IMG/VR virus record: IMGVR_UViG_3300028920_002654
Location: 1-36,615 of that record
Origin: a virus
Direction: 5' to 3' (one strand)
Length of the DNA stretch: 36,615 nt
The notes beneath the pieces are model-generated. The model was not told the DNA's origin and did no database searches. It saw only the letters and a program-made list of their open reading frames with translations. Shown in pieces: positions 3,826 through 21,253 of this stretch; positions within the stretch are counted from its first letter, which is position 1, and the number at the start of each line of letters is the position of its first letter. Made by a program: the position numbers and the translations under genes.

Positions 3826-5364
3826 TCAACTCCCGCCACGCATCTCGTGATGGTCTGGAACATAAAGGAGGCCCGTTCTGAGTTGCCTTGCCTTCTTGGC
3901 CTCTTCGATGGCGATCATCTCCACGAAGTACAAGAGAGCCGATCGAGCCAGTTGAAGCCCCTCTGAGAGCTCACGTTGGAAGTCGCGAAGCATGCAGTGA
4001 TCGACGTACGTAGATCTCCTGAAGTCGCCCATTAATGGGTCGTGCAGTACAGCAAAGCGATGAGTCGCCGTGTTGCGCCACGCTGACTTCGGCTTGAGGT
4101 AACCGTATTTGCCGAGGTCCGAGCTGACCTCCGCCAACGCAATCACTGCGTAGTTGCCGCTACGGATCACGGCGTCTATCGGCGGCTGCCACGCAGGTAC
4201 TTCGTGGGGTTCACGCTTCTGAAACCACCTGGTCCTGAAGTAGATTTTCTGGGATCTGCCGGGGATGCCTAAGTAATCGCTGACAGCAACGGCCATCTTG
4301 TCTAGAAGATCCATGCAGACTCTGAGCGCGCCCGTGAGCAGAGAGACTGAGACGCCATACCTCGCGTAGTCCAGCGTATCATGATAGACGCCGCTCTCCT
4401 GGACAGCGTGGGTCTCCGCTGCGAAGGCGAGATAGCGGGCGAGCAAGAAGTCCGATTTGAGCGTATTGAACATGGCGAACATGGGCGGGACTCGCCCGTT
4501 CTCCCCGATCGGCTCGATGATGTGCCGAATCCTGAGGCGATCCCAGAGACGCGCATCCGCGTCCAAGCCCTCTATGGTTGGTGATAGCACGAGTCGACGA
4601 TCAAGCACGAACCGCTGGTAGTCCGTCAGCTTGTCGGGATCAATCTCCACGCCGGCAGAAGGTTGCGGAAGCGACAAGGACTCCAAGTACTTGACAGCAG
4701 CAGGACCTGCTAGGTCTTCCAGCTTGCGTGAGTGCTCTCTAGCGAGAGCGAGGTTCCTCGCCGCCGCCGAGAGAAGAACGTCGCGCGAGCCCACACCTCG
4801 TTCCAGACATCGGATCAGGACACGCACAGCGCCTGTTGAAGCGACACCATTCGTTGGGTCGTTTGCGAGTGCGGCCTGATAGCAGTCGTAGGCTTCAACC
4901 CATCTGTGAGACCTCCAGAGCGCGTTGCCCAACCCACAGCAGGCTCGAGCAGTGAGACCGGAATCCAGGTTGCTCAGAATGGCGTCCTTGTAGAGGCGTC
5001 TCGCCCGGAAGCGGCTTGGTCCTGTGCTGAGGTACCAGTCCGGAGCTGGGGTCTCATCGAGATTAGCCAAACCGCTAAGCCCGTTCGCCAAGGAGCAAGC
5101 CAGATTAGGGCGACGGGCCTCGTCGTCTTCGAGGCGTTCGAGGATGTCGACGCCCTCAGCGATGATGTCTGGAGAGCCGGCCTCAATGCCGGCATCTACG
5201 AGCACGCCTCCCCTGAAGCCTTGTGTGAAGAACTCACCGAGTACAGGATCCTCCGCCAGGCACCGCACAGCGTCTGCAGCGGCCAACGGGTCGGAATTCA
5301 TCAGACCGTAGTAGCGCTGAGTCAGCTCTTCGAGCCTTGCTGCGATTGCCTGATCGTAGCGCAA
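3826..5364 (-). CDS. TPR-like/HEPN (LA2681-type) protein, putative RNase toxin or defence protein
   Basis: The frame stays open through attC D, so the first codons upstream are not coding. The best start is a TTG at 5364 with AAGGA eight bases upstream, giving 512 residues. Residues about 10-230 are all-helical, with TPR-like units (ARACCGLGNALWRSHRWVEAYDCYQAALANDPTN). Residues about 245-500 match the LA2681-like HEPN domain: LTDYQRFVLDRRLVLSP, MFNTLKSDFLLARYLAF, TLDYARYGVSV, DKMAVAVSDYLGI, YFRTRWF. A canonical HEPN catalytic motif R-N-x3-H is present at R430-N431-H435 (WRNTATHRF). HEPN proteins of this kind are generally metal-independent RNases in toxin-antitoxin or defence systems. That function is inferred here. 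No antitoxin gene accompanies it in the cassette. Confidence 0.82.
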   Translation of the reverse strand: MRYDQAIAARLEELTQRYYGLMNSDPLAAADAVRCLAEDPVLGEFFTQGFRGGVLVDAGIEAGSPDIIAEGVDILERLEDDEARRPNLACSLANGLSGLANLDETPAPDWYLSTGPSRFRARRLYKDAILSNLDSGLTARACCGLGNALWRSHRWVEAYDCYQAALANDPTNGVASTGAVRVLIRCLERGVGSRDVLLSAAARNLALAREHSRKLEDLAGPAAVKYLESLSLPQPSAGVEIDPDKLTDYQRFVLDRRLVLSPTIEGLDADARLWDRLRIRHIIEPIGENGRVPPMFAMFNTLKSDFLLARYLAFAAETHAVQESGVYHDTLDYARYGVSVSLLTGALRVCMDLLDKMAVAVSDYLGIPGRSQKIYFRTRWFQKREPHEVPAWQPPIDAVIRSGNYAVIALAEVSSDLGKYGYLKPKSAWRNTATHRFAVLHDPLMGDFRRSTYVDHCMLRDFQRELSEGLQLARSALLYFVEMIAIEEAKKARQLRTGLLYVPDHHEMRGGS

Positions 5365-5388
5365 CGTCCCATCCTTCTTGAGCGACGC

Positions 5389-5512
5389 GTCTAACGAGAC
5401 GCGTTTCAGCTGCGGGCGCAGTGTGGCGCGGGGTGTGCCGCGCGAGCAAAGCGAGCGCCCCCTTGCAGACGCAGTGACGCACGCGGCCTGCGGCTGCAAA
5501 CGCCTGTCAGAC
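5389..5512 (-). repeat. attC site D
   Basis: It begins GTCTAAC (5389-5395) and ends GTCAGAC (5506-5512), with inner TTTCAGCTGCGGGCGCAGTG and CTGCGGCTGCAAACGCCT boxes. The central part (GCGCGGGGTGTGCCGCG, CCCCCTTGCAGACGC) is shared with sites C and J. The R'' box is a perfect match to RYYYAAC. Confidence 0.85.
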
Positions 5513-5521
5513 AGCGCCACC

Positions 5522-7405
5522 TCAACCATCGCCAGCAGCACCATGCCACCAAGGCGGCGGTCCCGCGATCTCAGCTTCGTGTTGTCGGGTTGACACCAGG
5601 ATTCCGCCTGGAATCGGGTGAACCAGGCGGATGGGGTGCCGTGTGGCAACCTCACCGACAAGGCTGCCGTCAGCTGAGAACCAACGGAAGGACTTCTCGG
5701 ACATCAGCCCGAATCCCGTCTGACCGAGAACGAGATCACCCTCGCCAAGAATGTCGACTATCGTCTCGAGGCTGTCGCCGCGAATCACGTAGAGACGGGT
5801 GCGAGTCTGGATGAAGAGTCGGTCCCCTGTGTCGACAATCCGCTCCGGGGAGTTGCCGACATCGTAGACTCTCTGAGGTTGCCCGTCGGACGACAGCTGG
5901 ACGACCTTGCCCTTCTCGCTTCCGACGTACACCGTGCCCCCGCTGGCGGCGAAGCTCGAGGCGTGCAGCCAATCCCCCATGCGGTCTGTGATGATGCTGG
6001 CCGTCATTGTCAGCTCAACTCCTCCAGCCGTGATCGTGCTGGAGTGCTGCTTCTGCCTATAGCTCACGCCGGTTGAAGGACCGAACTCAAGGTCCGCGGG
6101 ATTGGTGCCCGTCAGTACCTCGTACGCGTGATTCAGCTCCACCATGCGATCATGGCTTGCTGAGCTGCTTCTGTTGACGTCGGGGTGCCACTTCAGCGCT
6201 AGCTCCTTGTACCGCTGCTTGACCTCGTCTGGCGAACACGGGAGTGAGAGGGACATCAGACGCAGGGCCTCTCCTACTTCCGCGCTGGTCCCAGTAACCT
6301 CCGATGTGTCGACGAAAGGTTCCCACCCGTCAGGTAGCGGCATCTTGATGCTCCACAGAATCCGGCCAGCGCTGTCTAGGCACCAAGCTTCGTCGTCGAC
6401 TGTGTACAACAAGCGCTCGCCATCGTGCGAGACATCGACGGAGTCAATGTGTATCCTGTAGCTCGAATGGTCCCACCAGTCACGCGCCAGGCGCCGCACC
6501 TCCGGCCTCTTCCCGAGCTCGAGACGGGATGTCTCAAGAAGCTCGGCGTCGAGCGCCACGAAGAGCCCGTCAGAAGACATGTACGCGAACCTGTCGGACG
6601 TAGGATTGGATGACCGAACATCGATGTCGTGGTCTAGGGCCCTCTCGTGGGCGACTCTGCCCCCGGCGTCCCGCTTCTGCAGCACGGCTTCCGCACCCGG
6701 GAAGCGCTTGCTCCTGCCCCGGCAGTCCTCAAGGACACAACCATCGCGCGTGATGTGGAAGAGGTCAAATGCAGGATCGGGTCGTTCGTCCATGGGTAGC
6801 TTGCGCTCTGAGGCAACTGCCCACCCACTCCCGGGTGACACAGTGAACAGGGGTTCCCGCTGCTCTGGCAGCAGCTCAACCTGCGAGTACGGGCACTTCT
6901 TGCCAAGCTTCTCGCACTCGCGTATGAGCTTGTTCAGCTTGCGGCGATCTCTGTTCGTGACAGCACTCGGCAGCTCCTCGAAGAGCTCGGCGCACCACTT
7001 GGCAGCGATGTGCGGCTTTCCCTCCGCTTCCCGCTTCCGCACGATGTTCCGGTAGGCCCGCGCGCACACCCTCCCGAGGTGTCCAACTCTGGCTTCCGGA
7101 GGGAACTCGCGCATGAGGAGCAAGACCTTGTTGTACTGCTTCGCGCCATACGTGTACAGCACCGGCGCGGTCTCTGGGTCTCCGAGGAGCTCGAGCTCGC
7201 CGTAGTCTGGCTCCCGGACCTCCCACACATCTGGCGACCTCGGCAGAGGCACATAGCTGATCGACTCAAGAGATATCTCCCGAGGATCTGGCGTCGAGTC
7301 CGGCCGGCCGCTGGTGGACACGAGGTCCAGCTTGGACTCACCAGAGTTCTTCTGTGTCCGTCGACGGCCAGAGATGCGGGAGAAGAAACCCATGACGTCA
7401 CTCAT
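5522..7405 (-). CDS. Beta-propeller-like protein with an internal J domain (cassette gene)
   Basis: This product has about 627 residues, taking the ATG at 7405; an ATG at 7393 is an equally possible start. A helical N-terminal part with a Cys-rich segment (to about residue 190) is followed by WD/PQQ-propeller-like strands (PTSDRFAYMSSDGLFVALD, SVDVSHDGERLLYTVDDEAWCLDSAGRILW). A complete J domain follows at about residues 380-435 (MSLSLPCSPDEVKQRYKELA, ALKWHPDVN, MVELNHAYEVLTG) with the essential HPD triad at about 407-409. More propeller-like repeats follow (ASGGTVYVGSEKGKVVQLSS, TGDRLFIQTRTRLYVI). J domains stimulate Hsp70 ATPase, so a client-recruiting cochaperone role is possible. Lodging a J domain inside a propeller-like protein is unusual. 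There is no signal peptide, so it is cytoplasmic. Confidence 0.8.
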   Translation of the reverse strand: MSDVMGFFSRISGRRRTQKNSGESKLDLVSTSGRPDSTPDPREISLESISYVPLPRSPDVWEVREPDYGELELLGDPETAPVLYTYGAKQYNKVLLLMREFPPEARVGHLGRVCARAYRNIVRKREAEGKPHIAAKWCAELFEELPSAVTNRDRRKLNKLIRECEKLGKKCPYSQVELLPEQREPLFTVSPGSGWAVASERKLPMDERPDPAFDLFHITRDGCVLEDCRGRSKRFPGAEAVLQKRDAGGRVAHERALDHDIDVRSSNPTSDRFAYMSSDGLFVALDAELLETSRLELGKRPEVRRLARDWWDHSSYRIHIDSVDVSHDGERLLYTVDDEAWCLDSAGRILWSIKMPLPDGWEPFVDTSEVTGTSAEVGEALRLMSLSLPCSPDEVKQRYKELALKWHPDVNRSSSASHDRMVELNHAYEVLTGTNPADLEFGPSTGVSYRQKQHSSTITAGGVELTMTASIITDRMGDWLHASSFAASGGTVYVGSEKGKVVQLSSDGQPQRVYDVGNSPERIVDTGDRLFIQTRTRLYVIRGDSLETIVDILGEGDLVLGQTGFGLMSEKSFRWFSADGSLVGEVATRHPIRLVHPIPGGILVSTRQHEAEIAGPPPWWHGAAGDG

Positions 7406-7417
7406 TCCTGTGGCGCT

Positions 7418-7522
7418 GTCCAACGAATCGCGCGTCAGCCGCGGCTGGGTGGGGGCGGGGCTGGTGCCACTCTCGCAGCCGCCGTTACACCGCCCGCCGT
7501 CGGCTGCATGTGCTAGTTAGAC
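7418..7522 (-). repeat. attC site E
   Basis: This is a clean site of 105 bp. GTCCAAC (7418-7424) and GTTAGAC (7516-7522) are the outer boxes. GAATCGCGCGTCAGCCGCGG and CCGTCGGCTGCATGTGCTA are the inner boxes. It is nearly identical in these boxes to sites F and G. Confidence 0.92.
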
Positions 7523-7551: not shown

Positions 7552-8526
7552 CTACGTCAGCCCATCGAGAGTAGTCAGAGGATCAGGAAGCCACAGTCCA
7601 CTCTCATTGGGACGGTAATCCATCAGCCAACGAAGGAGATCGCTCTTGTCCCTGAGTTCAACTCCCATGAGCGACAGCTGGGTCGGCGTGTAGCGTCGCC
7701 CGGCACTGAACCCTGCAAGAGACACGATGAGTGCAGCATGCCAGCCGATACGCGGACGTTCAGCCATCATGGCACCGTACACCTTCTCAATGACTTCCAC
7801 TCCCACCGTGGAGTGGGTGCGCTTGACCTCCACGAAGACCCGAAGTGTGGTGCCGAGCTCATCACTGAAGCAACTAGCGAAGACGTCAGCTGCCGTATCG
7901 GTCGATCTTCCTACCAAACGGACGTCGTCGAACCCCTTTGCTGCGAAGAACTCGGCAACGAGGTGCTCGAAGACATCCCAAGGGATGTCAAGTAGCTGCG
8001 AATGGTCCTTCTTGAGGTGGCGAATGAGGTCAGGCGTTAGTCGCGAGACCTCTGCAATCACTCTGGAGGTAGCCTTGGGCCGCGCTTCCGGTGTCTGGCG
8101 TGCGGCGAAGCGCTCAATCCACCTTGCGTCGAAGGTGGTCTTCGCGTTGCGGAGCGCGAGCGTCTCGGCACGTTTGACTGCGGCAGGGGTACGCCCCAGA
8201 AACTCCGCCACGACTTCATGGGACATCGGGGGATTGCCTGAGAAAACCCCGTATCGCATGCGAAGCACCTCTGCCTGAAAGGGAGTGAGCTGCGAGAAGA
8301 CATGCTTGAGTGCCTGTTGCAGATCGCGCTCAAGCCTCCGCCTCTCGCGAGCTTCCTCGTCAATGACCTCGATGCCAGACTCATGAAGGGCAGTGTACAC
8401 GTCGTCCAGCACTTCCGGCGTGAAGAGAGAGTTGGGGATGCCCTTGCTGACATGCTTGTAGCTGAGGCTGCGCTGTTTGGTGCCTTCTCGCACCAAGCGG
8501 CGTATGACATCTTCCTTTGAACGCAA
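7552..8526 (-). CDS. Sigma-70 region 1.1 / region 4-like protein fused to an Mrr-like PD-(D/E)XK nuclease
   Basis: The 324-residue product starts at a TTG at 8526 with AAGGAG six bases upstream. Residues about 4-58 (IRRLVREGTKQRSLSYKHVS..., LDDVYTALHESGIEVIDEE) resemble region 1.1 of primary sigma factors. Residues about 68-130 (LTPFQAEVLRMRYGV..., HEVVAEFLGRTPAAVKRAET, LALRNA) resemble sigma region 4 with its helix-turn-helix. Regions 2 and 3 are absent. Residues about 175-303 form an Mrr-type restriction-endonuclease-like domain: E187 in FEHLVAEFF, D214 in TAADVF, and E233-V-K235 in FVEVKRT as the expected catalytic set, then HAALIVSLAGFSAGR. It may be a DNA-cleaving defence protein that uses sigma-like modules to bind promoters or RNA polymerase. 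The function is inference; the three-part architecture is what the sequence shows. Confidence 0.82.
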   Translation of the reverse strand: MRSKEDVIRRLVREGTKQRSLSYKHVSKGIPNSLFTPEVLDDVYTALHESGIEVIDEEARERRRLERDLQQALKHVFSQLTPFQAEVLRMRYGVFSGNPPMSHEVVAEFLGRTPAAVKRAETLALRNAKTTFDARWIERFAARQTPEARPKATSRVIAEVSRLTPDLIRHLKKDHSQLLDIPWDVFEHLVAEFFAAKGFDDVRLVGRSTDTAADVFASCFSDELGTTLRVFVEVKRTHSTVGVEVIEKVYGAMMAERPRIGWHAALIVSLAGFSAGRRYTPTQLSLMGVELRDKSDLLRWLMDYRPNESGLWLPDPLTTLDGLT

Positions 8527-8568: not shown

Positions 8569-8658
8569 ACCGAACGAATCGCGCGTCAGCCGCGGCAGGC
8601 GCTCATCCTCGCAGCCGCCGTGGCACCACCCGCCGTCGGCTGCATGCGCTAGTCAGGC
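8569..8658 (-). repeat. attC site F
   Basis: This is a compact 90-bp site. The left outer box ACCGAAC deviates by one base from RYYYAAC, and the right is GTCAGGC (8652-8658). The inner boxes GAATCGCGCGTCAGCCGCGG and GCCGTCGGCTGCATGCGCTA match sites E and G. Confidence 0.88.
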
Positions 8659-9501: not shown

Positions 9502-9590
9502 GTCCAACGCCTGCGCGTCAGCCGCGCCAGGCGAATGGCACGAGCGGTGGCTACGTTTCGCCCTAATCACCCGACTCCCGGTCGGCTGGT
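9502..9590 (-). repeat. attC site H (one end degenerate)
   Basis: GTCCAAC (9502-9508) and CTGCGCGTCAGCCGCGCCAG are clear. The far half keeps only CCCGGTCGGCTGG and lacks a recognisable GTTRRRY box. The stop codon of the DUF4238 gene (9563) lies inside the site. It shares the centre AGGCGAATGGCACGAGCG with site K, defining a third attC subtype. Confidence 0.7.
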
Positions 9591-10471
9591 CCAACTCCGC
9601 GGATCGTGAACCCCGGTTTGTCTTCCCACATGCCTGGCCGTACATCGAAGTCCGCCGCGCTCTTCGCGTAGAGGAACCGGTTTGCGGAGTTGGCCAGGTA
9701 TCCGTGGTAGTGCAGAAGATTGTCCTCCGTAAGCCGCAGCACCTCTCCGTCGTACACGTCATACATGTCCGGCTCTGCGATCGATAGAAGCGCCGTCGGC
9801 GATATCGCCAGTTCGAAGACGACGCCCGGTGAACAGAAGCCGAGGTTTCCGAAGGGTCTCGGCTTGCGCTCGTTGTACTTGAACACCGGCGTGTCTGACG
9901 TACAACAGCGCTTGCCCTTGGGCGCGAGCGCGACACGCCATGCTCTGTCGAGCAGCAGCGGATACAAGCGCGCTATCTCCTCGATAAGGCCGATTTGCAG
10001 TGCGGCGGCGTGCTCAGGCGTTCTTGACTCCAGCCCCTTTTCGAGTTCGGGCGCAACGGGTCCGAACTTCCGCACATGTTCGATGATCATTTTGGGTTGC
10101 GCCTCTAACGACCTCCTGAGAGCGGGCCCCCTGACCGACTGGACGGTGATGAATAGCGCGATTGCGTCTCGTTCTCGCCTAGATAGCTCCAGCACTGACA
10201 GCGACCCCCGGAGTGTCTCGAATGCGCGTGCGGCCAAGGACTCGAGGCGCTGAAGAGCCGGGTCGATCGTGATGGAGACCTTGTCGCTGATGGCAACTTC
10301 GTAGTAGTGGTTCTCACATGCGACGTTGTTCAGACCCGTGCTGAAGATCTTGCTTTCACGCAGATCGTCAACCGCGACTACCTTCTTCTGCTTCCTCTTG
10401 CGGGTTCTCACAGAGCAGAACGCGTCCAGATAGAACTGCGGTACGTAATGCTGAGTCTTCGGACGTGACAA
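9563..10471 (-). CDS. DUF4238 domain protein (cassette gene)
   Basis: The 302-residue product starts at a TTG (10471) with GGAG seven bases upstream. The opening PKTQHYVPQFYLDAF is the hallmark of DUF4238 proteins, and NNVACENHYYE, DPALQRLESLAARAFE and the IALFITVQSVRGPALR segment fit the family. A later FKYNERKPRPFGNLGFCSPG..., VFELAISPTALLSI stretch also fits. The family has no established biochemical activity, but members are frequent in accessory and defence-rich regions. The ORF extends into its attC, so the last few residues may vary among cassettes. It is cytoplasmic, with no signal peptide or membrane segment. Confidence 0.85.
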   Translation of the reverse strand: MSRPKTQHYVPQFYLDAFCSVRTRKRKQKKVVAVDDLRESKIFSTGLNNVACENHYYEVAISDKVSITIDPALQRLESLAARAFETLRGSLSVLELSRRERDAIALFITVQSVRGPALRRSLEAQPKMIIEHVRKFGPVAPELEKGLESRTPEHAAALQIGLIEEIARLYPLLLDRAWRVALAPKGKRCCTSDTPVFKYNERKPRPFGNLGFCSPGVVFELAISPTALLSIAEPDMYDVYDGEVLRLTEDNLLHYHGYLANSANRFLYAKSAADFDVRPGMWEDKPGFTIRGVGPADRESGD

Positions 10472-14010: not shown

Positions 14011-14419
14011 GGGAGATCAGTGATGGGCACTCACATGCCAATAGCCTACTGCCAACGGGATGTCTCAGTCAACCCCACCATTGCTGCCAACCACACCCGA
14101 CACCTGTGAGAAGCAGGATCCCGCGCACGAGAGCCCCCACACTCCGCTCTGGCCTGCAGGGCGCGATTCCGATCCAGCCAGGAGTAGCTTCTTCAGTGCG
14201 TGTCCCCATCCGAGGCTCTCAGCCCCCCTTTGTCCTTAGGAAGCGGTATGTCCTCGACCCGAACAGGCTGCGGAACGCCAGCGCGTAGGTACTTCCGGCG
14301 CAACCAGAGCGGGTGCCGGCGACCCCGACTTTCAGTACGTGCGAGGCGCCTGAAACAACTTGCCAGTTGCCACTTGCCAGTTGCCACTCGCGGGGAAGCA
14401 GTGGCGCGGGAGGATGCAG
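14011..14419. other. Left end of the phage element, no confident gene
   Basis: These 409 bases separate the broken attC from the methyltransferase gene. Short open frames exist (for example 13989-14288 and 14248-14436, plus strand), but none has both a good ribosome-binding site and a recognisable product. The segment holds a run of TTGCCA repeats just before the methyltransferase and may contain the attachment site and promoter for the packaging operon. A gene truncated at the left may also be hidden here. Confidence 0.5.
14360..14387 (+). repeat. Four tandem 7-bp repeats (TTGCCAS)
   Basis: TTGCCAG, TTGCCAC, TTGCCAG, TTGCCAC follow each other without spacers, ending about 32 bp before the ATG of the ParB-methyltransferase gene. 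Three more copies of the TTGCCA core in either orientation lie inside that gene at 14547-14552, 14563-14568 and 14570-14575. The run may be an operator or a binding site for the ParB-like domain. Confidence 0.7.
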
Positions 14420-16000
14420 ATGACACGGAAGACTGAAGCGCCCGCGGATGCCGAAAAGGCCCAAGTCAAGGGCCCGAAAGGCCGCAAGGCCACCACGAAG
14501 AAGGCGGCAGCACCGTCCGGGCGTCGGCCCACGAAGAAGCGAAAGGTGGCAACCGGGAAGGGTGGCAACTTGCCACCCTCAGGGCCTGCCACGGCAGATG
14601 TGCCGGAGGCCTTCGCCGTGACGCTGCCGGGCAAGCTCGAGCACTGGCCGATCGACCGGCTCCGCCCCTACGAGCGGAACCCCCGGACCCACAGCGCCGA
14701 GCAGGTCACGAAGATGGCGGCGAGCCTGCTCGAGTTCGGCTGGACCAACCCGATCCTCGTGGACGGGGACTCAGGGATCATTGCGGGGCACGGCCGGCTC
14801 CTTGCCGCCCGCGAGCTTGGCATGACCACCGTCCCGGTGATCGAGCTCGCGCACCTCACCGAGGCCCAGAAGCGCGCGTACATCATCGCGGACAACCGGC
14901 TCGCACTCGACGCCGGCTGGGACGAGGACCTGCTCGCGGAGGAGCTCAAGGCGCTTGAGGGCTTGGACTTCAACCTGGTGCTCACCGGGTTCGACCTGGA
15001 CGAACTGCACGCGCTCCTGGAGGACGAGACGGCTGAAGAGGTTCCGGCACCGGAGCCGCCTGAGGATCCCGTCTCCCGCTTGGGTGATCTCTGGATCATG
15101 GGTGAACACCGCCTGCTCTGCGGCGACTCGTCCGATCCGGGAGCCGTGGATCGGCTGCTCGACAGCGCTCCGATCCACCTCGTGAACACCGATCCGCCCT
15201 ACAACGTGAAAGTCGAGCCCCGCTCGAACAACGCGATCGCCGCCGGACTCTCGAGCTTCCCAGCCGCCAGGAACGCGGTGGAGGCCTCCGACGCCCAGGG
15301 CATGCACCACCAGGGTTTCGACCTGGCACGCCACAAGACGAAGTCGAGGCCCACCGGAAGGATGCGTCCCAAGGACAGACCGCTGGCCAACGACTTCATC
15401 TCCGACGAGGCGTTCGACGAGCTGCTCCTGGCGTGGTTCGGGAACATCGCGCGCGTGCTTCTCCCCGGCCGCTCGTTCTACATCTGGGGCGGTTACGCAA
15501 ACCTCGCCAACTACCCGCCGGCGCTCAAGGCCGTCGGGCTCTACTTCAGCCAGTCGGTCATCTGGGACAAGCAGCACCCGGTCCTGACGCGCAAGGACTT
15601 CATGGGCGCGCACGAGCAGGCGTTCTACGGGTGGAAGGAAGGCGCGGCTCACCAGTTCTTCGGGCCGAAGAACGTGCCGGACCTGTGGGCGGTCAAGAAG
15701 GTCAACCCGCAGAGCATGGTCCACCTCACTGAGAAGCCGGTCGAGCTCGCGGTGCGAGCGATCCACTACTCCTCAAGGCCAGGCGAGCACGTGCTCGACC
15801 TCTTCGGCGGAAGCGGCAGCACGCTGATCGGCGCCGAGGAGACCGGGCGGCGGTGCTTCATGATGGAGCTCGACCCGGCGTACACCGATGTGATCGTGCT
15901 CCGCTGGCAGGAAGCGACGGGCGAGAGCGCGATCCTCGAGGGCGACGGGCGCCGCTTCGACGAGGTCTCGGCCGACCGCAGGCCTGAACGGGGCGTGTAG
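14420..16000 (+). CDS. ParB-domain DNA methyltransferase (N4-cytosine/N6-adenine type)
   Basis: The 526-residue product starts at ATG 14420 with GGGAGG six bases upstream. Residues 1-50 are Lys-rich and disordered (KAQVKGPKGRKATTKK). Residues about 73-165 form a ParB/Srx-like domain (WPIDRLRPYERNPRTHS, GIIAGHGRLLAARELGM, AYIIADNRLALDAGWD). Residues about 220-510 form a class-beta methyltransferase with motif IV TDPPYN (257-262) before motif I DLFGGSGST (about 460-468). The KPVELAVRAIHYSSRPGEHV segment matches the N4/N6 methylase family. Such fusions are common in phages and may protect phage DNA from restriction or mark it for packaging. The next gene, the small terminase, begins four bases after its stop in the same frame, suggesting one transcript. 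Confidence 0.9.
   Translation: MTRKTEAPADAEKAQVKGPKGRKATTKKAAAPSGRRPTKKRKVATGKGGNLPPSGPATADVPEAFAVTLPGKLEHWPIDRLRPYERNPRTHSAEQVTKMAASLLEFGWTNPILVDGDSGIIAGHGRLLAARELGMTTVPVIELAHLTEAQKRAYIIADNRLALDAGWDEDLLAEELKALEGLDFNLVLTGFDLDELHALLEDETAEEVPAPEPPEDPVSRLGDLWIMGEHRLLCGDSSDPGAVDRLLDSAPIHLVNTDPPYNVKVEPRSNNAIAAGLSSFPAARNAVEASDAQGMHHQGFDLARHKTKSRPTGRMRPKDRPLANDFISDEAFDELLLAWFGNIARVLLPGRSFYIWGGYANLANYPPALKAVGLYFSQSVIWDKQHPVLTRKDFMGAHEQAFYGWKEGAAHQFFGPKNVPDLWAVKKVNPQSMVHLTEKPVELAVRAIHYSSRPGEHVLDLFGGSGSTLIGAEETGRRCFMMELDPAYTDVIVLRWQEATGESAILEGDGRRFDEVSADRRPERGV
14560..14578. repeat. Perfect palindrome inside the methyltransferase gene
   Basis: GGGTGGCAA-C-TTGCCACCC is a 9-bp inverted repeat around one base. 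It carries the same TTGCCA core as the tandem repeats upstream and lies within the Lys-rich, poorly constrained N-terminal coding region. Confidence 0.6.
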
Positions 16001-18637: not shown

Positions 18638-19501
18638 CTAGAACCCATGCATTGCAATCAGGTGATGAACGCGGCAACCTCGATCCGACGCGGCCGGAAG
18701 GAGCTCCTGCCATGAGAGCACGCGGATCGTAGAAGACAGCTCGCTTAGCTTCTTGGCCCATCCGTACGTCGGGTTCCCGAAATAGGGATTCCTGTCATCG
18801 TACAGGAGAGTCCACGTAGCCGTCGGATTGAGGGCGCGGGTCTCAGCCACATTGTGCACCATCTGATACGCCGCCCAGATGGGGCAGGTGATCGGCGGTG
18901 CCGGAGGAGCTGCGTTCAGCCGGAAAAGCTCAACTGCAGCATCCCAGTAGCGATCAGCAGTAGCCCTGTTCGCCAACGGTTCGCCCATGGGACAGCCACG
19001 GTGAACTCCGTCTCGCGGGCGCCAGCTGCCGTCACACCGACCCTTGCCAGGATAGCTGCACTTGCCGAACCCCTCCTCCGTGAACTTGGCTTCCAGAGTC
19101 GCTACGACCTCATTGGTGCGACTCCGAAAGGTCACATCGAAGTTCGTGCGCCCGTGTACCTCCTCAAAGCCGAGGCTCACGTCGTGCATGCCAATGACGA
19201 GATGTAGGGAGTCCGCTGCGGCAAGAAGCCCCATTACCTCGACGACGAGGGCCTGCGATGACCTCGGGCTATAGCAGTCCGTGTGCCACGCGTCCCCTGG
19301 CACCTTGGCAGCTAATCCTCCCAGTCTCTCGTACATCAGCGCCGCCCTCTGCTTGTCGTCGATGCGTCTTGACCGAGGGCGTCCGTTCTCGTCCACATCG
19401 GGATGCCCCGCGGCAAGCCACAGCCCATAGAGACGATCCATGTAGCGCGAGTAGCTCGCGCCGCAGGCAGCCTCAAGCTCCGATGGGGTCAAGAAGTTCA
19501 T
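18638..19501 (-). CDS. PD-(D/E)XK nuclease, PGN_0703-like putative restriction endonuclease
   Basis: The 287-residue product starts at ATG 19501, 51 bases after the GmrSD-like gene in the same direction. The nuclease core is HGRTNFDVTFRSRTNEVVATLEAKFTEEGF, with D122 and E137-x-K139 as the expected active site. Four cysteines lie downstream (C148 in GKCSYPG, C156 in GRCDG, C170 in RGCPMGEP, C206 in ITCPIWAAYQMVHNVAE). They could hold an iron-sulfur cluster or zinc, as in RecB-like nucleases. This pattern resembles the PGN_0703 family of putative restriction enzymes. Together with its neighbour it forms a two-nuclease module, probably anti-phage. It is convergent with the large terminase, 12 bases apart. 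Confidence 0.75.
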   Translation of the reverse strand: MNFLTPSELEAACGASYSRYMDRLYGLWLAAGHPDVDENGRPRSRRIDDKQRAALMYERLGGLAAKVPGDAWHTDCYSPRSSQALVVEVMGLLAAADSLHLVIGMHDVSLGFEEVHGRTNFDVTFRSRTNEVVATLEAKFTEEGFGKCSYPGKGRCDGSWRPRDGVHRGCPMGEPLANRATADRYWDAAVELFRLNAAPPAPPITCPIWAAYQMVHNVAETRALNPTATWTLLYDDRNPYFGNPTYGWAKKLSELSSTIRVLSWQELLPAASDRGCRVHHLIAMHGF

Positions 19502-19552
19502 CAGACCGCACCGGCAGTGGAAAGACGTGCAGCGGCACGCAACGTCGTCACA

Positions 19553-21253
19553 TCATGCACCGAGGAACCCATTGAGCCGGTCCGCCACGAGCGCCCGACG
19601 GCGGGACAAAAACTCCTTGTAGGCGTCAACCGTGAGAGTCTCTGGATCGGTCGGTATGCACTGCGCCTCGAAGACGGACAGTCCCGACTTCTTGAGTATC
19701 TCCGGGAAGTACTCGCTAGGCGTCTTGTCACTAATCTGGCGATTTGTCTTCCCCGAGATGAAGCAGAGGTTCGCAATGTCATCTGCTTCGCGCCCAGTGT
19801 AGGTACCCTTGAGAACAGCCTTTGGGAAGATGTGATGGAACTGCAGCTTGTGTTGAGCACCGGAATGGTCAAGGGCAATCGCGACCTGTGATCGCCAGTC
19901 TTTGGCTCCCCCCTCGCGGAATGCCAGGAACATCGTCTTGAACAGCGCGCTGCGCTGGCTTCGCCCTTCAAGTTCCTCGGGAGCTACATCCAGACGACCA
20001 ACCTGCTGCCGGAGTTGGTCGACAAGCTCCTGCGCTCCTCCGCCGTCCCGGAGAATCGCTAGATCCTGATCCAGAATCGTCTCGCTAGACCCGCGCGAGT
20101 AGCGGCCCTTGGCATTCGCCGTGAGTGTCCAGTGCCTCAGGAGATCGGACTCTTCCGGAGAGAGATCGTAGTCGTGCTTGTGCCCATGGAAGCCCAGTGC
20201 GATGACAATGAAGGGAGACGACATGAGGGCCGGGCTGTCGATCCCCACGTTGTTCTTCAGGAAGTTGATCGCGAACTCCATCCCACGGCAGCTCTCCTTC
20301 CAGCCACTCTTCAGCGCACCCAGCCTCAGCCCTCCAACGGTGCGGAATCTCGACTGACCCGTGGTGAACGCCACAAGGTTCTTCAGATGCAGGCCGAGAT
20401 CCAGATCGAATCCATCCTCCTGACACTGGCTCTGGAAGGATTCAAACACCTTGAGCGAGTTGCGCCACTTGGCGGTGATCTGGGCCAGCGCCAGATCGGA
20501 GCTACGCAGCTTCGCGCCGAGCGAGTTCACGCGCACGAAGATCTCTGTGACTTCGTCATACGTGAGCCGTCTCTCAAGGACGTCCATTCGGTAGACGTAC
20601 TTCCGAACCGCCCGCAGGCGCGCAAGCCTCTGACTATAGCGTTCGTAGTTCGGATCCTCGAACCCCGTGACACCTGCGCGCTTGAGAAACTCCTTGTCGC
20701 TGTCAGTCTTGAAGACCTCCGATACCTTCACCCACTGTGGCAGCCGTTCGAGCTTCCGGGTGGCGACCACGAAGGTCATCTTGTTGAATCGCCTCTGCAG
20801 TTCGTCTTCAGTGGAATCGACCTCGTCCTCAGTTCGGTCGACCTCCTCCTCATCGTCGTTCCCATCCTCATCGACCTCTGTAACCACGTCCAGTTGCTCG
20901 GGATGCTCGAGGTTGAACAGCAGCTCCACTGGCCGCTTGCGTCCACGCACCTTCACCGGCTTCCCGCGGATCACCGCCCAAAGCGAGGTGAGGCGTTGCT
21001 GTCCATCGAGCAGGAGTCTGGTGGTCTGGTAGGGATTCGACTCCTGGCTGACGGCCATGTCCTGCAACGGCACCTCTTCATCAGTCTCCCAGACGAGAAT
21101 CGCGCCGGACGGGTAGCCACGGTAGAGCGAGTCGAAGAGGTCGCGAACGCGGGTTGACCGCCAGACGTAGCGGCGCTGCATTTCGGGTAGACGCAACTCA
21201 CCACGCTCGATCATCCCGACGAGTTCTTCCACAGAAGCTTCGGCTTTTGCCAT
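19553..21253 (-). CDS. DUF262/HNH protein (GmrSD-like type IV restriction enzyme)
   Basis: The 566-residue product starts at ATG 21253 behind GAGAGGG. The N-terminal DUF262 (GmrS) domain shows LRLPEMQRRYVWRSTRVRDL and LLLDGQQRLTSLWAV (83-89 DGQQRLT), the ParB-like nucleotide-binding motif. A strongly acidic repeat linker lies at about 120-150 (DGNDDEEEVDRTEDEVDSTE). A helical middle follows, then an HNH (DUF1524/GmrD) nuclease: LQFHHIFPKAVL (H473/H474) and DDIANLCFISGKTN (N495). Family members cut modified phage DNA in an NTP-dependent way. It is the first gene of a minus-strand pair with the PD-(D/E)XK nuclease. The pair sits where the phage portal and capsid genes should be, so it is probably acquired cargo. 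Confidence 0.88.
   Translation of the reverse strand: MAKAEASVEELVGMIERGELRLPEMQRRYVWRSTRVRDLFDSLYRGYPSGAILVWETDEEVPLQDMAVSQESNPYQTTRLLLDGQQRLTSLWAVIRGKPVKVRGRKRPVELLFNLEHPEQLDVVTEVDEDGNDDEEEVDRTEDEVDSTEDELQRRFNKMTFVVATRKLERLPQWVKVSEVFKTDSDKEFLKRAGVTGFEDPNYERYSQRLARLRAVRKYVYRMDVLERRLTYDEVTEIFVRVNSLGAKLRSSDLALAQITAKWRNSLKVFESFQSQCQEDGFDLDLGLHLKNLVAFTTGQSRFRTVGGLRLGALKSGWKESCRGMEFAINFLKNNVGIDSPALMSSPFIVIALGFHGHKHDYDLSPEESDLLRHWTLTANAKGRYSRGSSETILDQDLAILRDGGGAQELVDQLRQQVGRLDVAPEELEGRSQRSALFKTMFLAFREGGAKDWRSQVAIALDHSGAQHKLQFHHIFPKAVLKGTYTGREADDIANLCFISGKTNRQISDKTPSEYFPEILKKSGLSVFEAQCIPTDPETLTVDAYKEFLSRRRALVADRLNGFLGA

Follow-up and report, generated by a model that had tools for sequence, protein, structure and literature searches.

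A putative integron cassette gene joining fragments of a primary sigma factor to an Mrr-type nuclease domain

The 36.6 kb IMG/VR record IMGVR_UViG_3300028920_002654, which in its entirety forms the window analysed here, contains a minus-strand gene at positions 7552-8526 that encodes a sigma-70 region 1.1 domain, a sigma region 4-like helix-turn-helix, and an Mrr-type PD-(D/E)XK nuclease domain, in that order. This domain order is real, fusions of a sigma fragment to Mrr are very rare, and the sigma module is clearly derived from RpoD. Regions 1.1 and 4, which phages are known to seize as components of the transcription machinery, are here built into a predicted DNA-cutting enzyme without the rest of sigma. 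Judged from the repeats that surround it, the gene is best read as a bacterial integron cassette gene. We consider, with a probability of roughly 0.5, that it encodes a solitary restriction nuclease resembling Mrr and the type IV enzymes, in which a domesticated RpoD fragment acts as the N-terminal targeting module.

Domain architecture and predicted structure

The first-pass annotation of this DNA had proposed these three modules together with the absence of sigma regions 2 and 3, and profile searches bear out each of these points. The N-terminus is matched by the Pfam model Sigma70_r1_1 (PF03979; E=1.5e-9, 38.1 bits against a cut-off of 22.5), and NCBIfam RpoD models match residues 3-67. The middle part is matched by Sigma70_r4 (PF04545; E=2.3e-5) at 24.2 bits, barely above the cut-off of 24.1; this marginal score was accepted because the structure and the relatives agree with it, and phmmer additionally pairs the same region with RpoD in 1tty (1.1e-5). 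A PDB sequence search returned RpoD/SigA chains, several of which were matched over two separate stretches corresponding to region 1.1 and region 4, and no Pfam match to sigma regions 2 and 3 was obtained at E<=10. The C-terminal part matches Mrr_cat (PF04471; E=3.3e-15, 56.7 bits against a cut-off of 21), and E187, D214, E233, and K235, which had been placed correctly at the outset, fall in the conserved Mrr columns FE.L, D, and E.K. At the same threshold of E<=10, Pfam gave no match to the N-terminal winged-helix domain of Mrr, where regions 1.1 and 4 stand instead, or to the HARE-HTH domain (PF05066), the N-terminus matching Sigma70_r1_1.

An AlphaFold2 monomer model was built from alignment rows for sigma region 4 and Mrr only, with region 1.1 modelled from its own sequence; a three-domain alignment was not used because MAFFT misplaced the sigma fragments. 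The mean predicted local distance difference test (pLDDT) value is 80.7, with approximately 91-94 in region 1.1 and values near 90 in most of the nuclease, and the placement of the domains relative to one another is uncertain because the predicted template-modelling score (pTM) is only 0.52. In this model, one long helix (residues 56-77) connects region 1.1 to region 4. Foldseek aligns the middle part with many SigA region 4 chains, beta-flap chimeras included, at approximately 1.6-2.0 Å over approximately 60 residues, consistent with the likeness to sigma that had been annotated. The best PDB matches of the nuclease part are MspJI (E=1.1e-4) and AspBHI (8.7e-3), which supports a PD-(D/E)XK fold.

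Relatives and the altered sigma module

No relatives of the sigma part were found in the IMG/VR, phage, and plasmid collections, in which only the Mrr half was matched. Two relatives are known from bacterial assemblies. The first (L009), in a Syntrophobacteraceae metagenome-assembled genome (MAG), is a protein of 303 amino acids that shares 41% identity with the cassette protein from residue 70 onward and carries sigma region 4 (3.1e-11) and Mrr (2.1e-9) without region 1.1. At L009:3090-4001 (plus strand), VEVRR replaces VEVKR, such that the catalytic K has become R while the protein is otherwise well conserved, and this relative is perhaps an inactive or altered member. The second (L057), from the same order, is a sigma-4/Mrr fusion with an intact VEVKR motif that is frameshifted as assembled: its sigma-4 and Mrr parts (L057:1143-2007, plus strand) lie in different frames, which could come from an error in sequencing or from a genuine break. 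Downstream of this fusion lies a gene that resembles ribF. Among 26 Mrr domains placed in a tree, the cassette protein and its two relatives form a clade with 100/100 support, and their nuclease domains are marked by an 'RPR.GWH' insertion and a GLWLP tail.

Homologues with the annotated domain order were recovered as far as region 4 and Mrr are concerned, and in neither of them does the order extend to region 1.1. No region 1.1 was detected by tblastn upstream of either fusion; in this search RpoD queries found the RpoD controls and region 1.1 of the window did not, so the negative result is weaker for a diverged copy. Loss of region 1.1 by frameshift in L009 or L057 was considered and rejected, as tblastn, with this partial control, finds no trace of it. 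Because both relatives have the fusion and neither has region 1.1, sigma-4 plus Mrr is, on sequence comparison, the conserved core of the family, and region 1.1 is therefore not essential to the function its members have in common. The fusion occurs in 2 of 39 genomes of the order to which L009 belongs and in 2 of 56 of its class. Across the 395 genomes of its phylum, the only full-length match lies in the genome of L009 itself, the remaining matches being mainly RpoD, and the family was not seen in approximately 930 genomes comprising Planctomycetota (294), the phylum of an Ectothiorhodospiraceae genome (399), and the phylum of a Spartobacteria genome (241).

In E. coli sigma-70, the hexamer RERIRQ (residues 584-589) includes R584 and E585, which read the -35 element (PMC2613000). 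When RpoD hexamers were located by their flanking sequence (n=100), RER(I/V)RQ was present in 100 of 100 motifs. The three fusions have PAAVKR, VSTVRK, and YSTVRR instead, such that R584, E585, and the motif-terminal Q589 are replaced in 3/3 clade members, and the region 4 scaffold motif LTP....LRMR[YF] is retained. The net charge of the region 1.1 core is 0 in the cassette protein as compared with -3 to -11 in 19 RpoD cores. The sigma module thus lacks promoter-reading features, and its region 1.1 lacks typical RpoD acidity. Loss of RER(I/V)RQ combined with a neutral region 1.1 argues against canonical promoter targeting and favours a repurposed DNA-binding or adaptor role. The initial proposal that the protein targets promoters bound by RNA polymerase loses ground on both counts, and further because region 1.1 is absent from both relatives.

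Possible roles of the sigma fragment

In the explanation that we favour, the region 4 helix-turn-helix, tied to region 1.1 by the long helix, would bind DNA or a partner other than the canonical -35 element, and the sigma head would bring the C-terminal PD-(D/E)XK domain to invading DNA, which would then be cut. It is possible that self DNA is spared through sensing of DNA modification, by analogy with MspJI and AspBHI. That the protein is an active nuclease, that its sigma head binds DNA, that it serves in defence, and how self DNA is spared are all inferred. This explanation is preferred because of the domains and catalytic residues, the structure model, the 100/100 clade, and the match of the Mrr part to several models of PDC-S02, a PADLOC candidate solitary defence nuclease. 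It is also preferred because related Mrr nucleases have diverse N-terminal parts, as expected if targeting modules swap, because neighbouring cassettes encode HEPN, DUF4238, and restriction-type proteins, and because none of the three members retains RER(I/V)RQ and region 1.1 has gone from acidic to neutral. If the sigma fragment is only a new DNA-binding module, then the gene still shows that pieces of a core transcription factor can be turned into a head that targets a restriction nuclease.

Several points weigh against this explanation. In sigma factors, region 1.1 is an element of the RNA polymerase channel and no reader of DNA, and its retention would be odd in a pure DNA-binding module. 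Only three members of the family are known and just one of them has region 1.1, and the R found in place of the catalytic K in L009 implies that some members may lack nuclease activity. Finally, a fusion of an Mrr nuclease to a NusG/RfaH-like domain (L024) hints at selection for a role related to RNA polymerase.

L024 (L024:1214-2332, plus strand), from an Ignavibacteriales MAG, is an unusual fusion in which a NusG/RfaH/UpxY-like domain, including a KOW-like part, precedes an Mrr nuclease. Its N-terminus matches the NCBIfam UpxY model (E=3.7e-11) and Pfam NusG above the cut-off, its structure model is poor in the NusG part, and it is adjoined by a nucleoside triphosphatase (NTPase) that appears STAND-like by eye. 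On the strength of its GLWLP tail, L024 was considered for the sigma-4/Mrr clade and was rejected, as the tree of Mrr domains places it elsewhere. Two separate fusions of a transcription module to Mrr, one with sigma and one with NusG, are suggestive (n=2), and docking on RNA polymerase and an anti-sigma decoy therefore stay live rivals to a sigma-headed DNA-targeting nuclease.

These two rivals can be stated together as sigma mimicry, in which regions 1.1 and 4 would either dock Mrr on RNA polymerase that is transcribing phage DNA or bait phage anti-sigma proteins, such that takeover of the host polymerase leads to cleavage of DNA. We hold this only tentatively and rank it clearly behind the favoured explanation. 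If the sigma part does contact RNA polymerase or phage anti-sigma proteins, then restriction would be linked to transcription takeover, a link that to our knowledge is undescribed. Together with the NusG/RfaH-Mrr fusion, sigma mimicry would define a class of restriction nucleases guided by the transcription machinery, and the existence of this separate fusion makes the broader question testable.

Taken separately, docking would place region 4 on the beta flap and region 1.1 on the clamp or channel, thereby leading the nuclease to transcribed or phage-reprogrammed DNA. The retained scaffold LTP....LRMR[YF], a fold that fits SigA region 4 structures including the beta-flap chimeras, and the occurrence of L024 as an independent Mrr nuclease outside the clade, with its NusG/RfaH/UpxY-like N-terminus and STAND-like neighbour, are consistent with such docking. 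However, the residues that read the -35 element are lost, region 1.1 is neutral rather than an acidic channel-filling element and is missing from L009 and L057, and the NusG fusion is a single case. Moreover, the main core-binding surface of sigma needs regions 2 and 3, which leaves a sigma fragment without them no such surface, and we regard docking as rather unlikely.

A decoy sensor, in which regions 1.1 and 4 bait phage anti-sigma proteins whose binding unleashes the nuclease, appears doubtful. The first-pass annotation had raised phage sigma hijacking, which corresponds to such a decoy and which gained no support here, without being refuted. T7 gp2 works through region 1.1, while T4 AsiA and phage G1 gp67 bind region 4. 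Exactly the two sigma segments targeted by phages are retained here and the promoter-reading residues are not, and 4g6d, in which sigma-4 is bound with G1 ORF67, is among the Foldseek matches. PMC4496699 lists structures of sigma-4 with AsiA and gp67 and of the holoenzyme with gp2. However, no partner or regulation is visible, the surface charge of region 1.1 is unlike that of RpoD, and region 1.1 is missing from both relatives. Bait would also be expected to keep the surface identity of RpoD, which the recognition helix did not.

An autoregulatory head is more doubtful still. Region 1.1 keeps free sigma-70 off DNA, and in the cassette protein it could mask the region 4 helix-turn-helix until displaced by DNA or a ligand; the single long helix that links both domains in the model would suit this arrangement, although a pTM of only 0.52 leaves their placement uncertain, the relatives have no region 1.1, and its acidity is gone. 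A functionless accidental fusion or assembly artefact is highly improbable: only one sequence shows region 1.1 and no close relative was found in the viral, phage, and plasmid collections searched, but a sigma-4/Mrr junction is also present in two genome assemblies that are independent of each other, nothing interrupts the frame, no catalytic residue is missing, and two attC sites bracket the gene exactly.

Cassette setting and comparison with known systems

The left 14 kb of the record are an integron cassette array that extends past the left end, and the right 22 kb are phage-like, with genes for a GpA terminase, a LexA-like repressor, a primase, and a serine recombinase. Approximately 10 attC-type repeats, against a chance expectation of 0, stand in tandem and in one orientation within 1-14 kb, and the repeats flanking the gene (Table 1) agree with the cassette that had been annotated. 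The reading frame is uninterrupted along its whole length, and AAGGAG lies approximately 6 nucleotides upstream of the start codon. Cassette status is assigned because of the repeats and not because of their folding scores: the attC site of the gene folds as an end-to-end hairpin (z -1.69), and the z-scores of both flanking sites are unexceptional. No contig sharing this attC was found among viral contigs, and an Rfam search gave no match.

Table 1. Coordinates of the putative cassette gene, its encoded domains, and the flanking attC sites
Feature	Positions	Strand	Basis or remark
Putative cassette gene	7552..8526	minus	324 amino acids, TTG start; only open frame with all three domains
Sigma-70 region 1.1 domain, residues 4-62 (counting R as 1)	8338..8514	minus	Pfam PF03979
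Sigma region 4-like helix-turn-helix, residues 76-125	8149..8298	minus	Pfam PF04545
Recognition-type helix, residues 113-130	8134..8187	minus	PAAVKR where RpoD has RERIRQ
Mrr_cat PD-(D/E)XK nuclease domain, residues 179-300	7624..7989	minus	Pfam PF04471, Foldseek MspJI/AspBHI
Span of E187, D214, E233, K235 (Met = 1)	7822..7968	minus	Alignment to Mrr columns
C-terminal GLWLP motif	7585..7599	minus	Common to 3/3 sigma-4/Mrr members
attC of the cassette gene	7418..7522	minus	GTCTAAC...GTTGGAC on gene strand, fits RYYYAAC / GTTRRRY
attC of the neighbouring cassette, upstream of the gene	8569..8658	minus	attC-type repeat

Further minus-strand genes were noted in the array. One (3826-5661) encodes TPR repeats with an LA2681-like HEPN domain (Pfam 5.5e-36); its open reading frame (ORF) start overlaps an attC repeat, and the true start is probably further downstream. 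Another (5522-7423) encodes a protein of at most 633 amino acids in which a DnaJ domain (6e-11) is flanked on both sides by repetitive segments resembling propellers by eye. The gene at 9563-10471 encodes a DUF4238 protein (Pfam 1.4e-31; PADLOC DUF4238-Pers 1.8e-6), and that at 278-1207 encodes, on its own, the C-terminal specificity domain of a type ISP/IIG restriction-modification enzyme and may be a remnant. On the border of the phage-like region, a plus-strand gene (14360-16000) joins a ParB-N domain to an N6/N4 DNA methylase. Just past the terminase, and opposite to the strand of the phage genes, two genes at 18638-21253 (minus strand) encode REase-ARP-like and GmrSD_N/HEC-05-like proteins, and this pair is likely phage-borne defence cargo.

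Among known systems, Mrr and the type IV endonucleases (PF04471; E. coli Mrr) share with the cassette protein a C-terminal Mrr domain, with E, D, and E.K intact, behind an N-terminal part of helix-turn-helix type. The cassette protein differs in that this part is made of RpoD-derived regions 1.1 and 4, with no other N-terminal Pfam domain, and in that its nuclease falls in a separate clade. The missing winged helix bars assignment to classical Mrr only, as the N-terminal part varies among Mrr-type nucleases. The modification-dependent enzymes MspJI and AspBHI are alike in the nuclease domain, whereas the N-terminal half of the cassette protein is sigma-derived; whole-model template-modelling (TM) scores to both are approximately 0.3 because only the nuclease domain matches. 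PDC-S02 is likewise similar in the Mrr part, its profile matches being partial and leaving the N-terminal half unmatched. Regions 1.1 and 4 are homologous to those of RpoD and the group 1 sigma-70 factors, but the cassette protein is without regions 1.2 to 3, has its -35 readers replaced and a region 1.1 that is not acidic, and carries a nuclease.

The combination of region 1.1, region 4, and Mrr was not found in a limited literature search, in keeping with the first-pass annotation, which knew of no described system built this way. Precedents for a sigma-type domain in an anti-phage protein do exist. MZA includes the sigma factor MzaA, although the match of the cassette protein to MzaA covers region 4 only and reaches 15.5 bits against an equivalog cut-off of 800, and none of the nearby ORFs that were scanned is one of mzaB-E. 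Another precedent is provided by DndH variants into which a sigma-type helix-turn-helix is inserted (PMC10853773). Both MZA and these variants comprise several genes and differ from the cassette protein in their nuclease or ATPase composition. The cassette protein lacks the features examined for a sigma factor, for HARE-HTH enzymes, and for MZA, and those that it possesses, both catalytic and of fold, are those of an Mrr-type nuclease.
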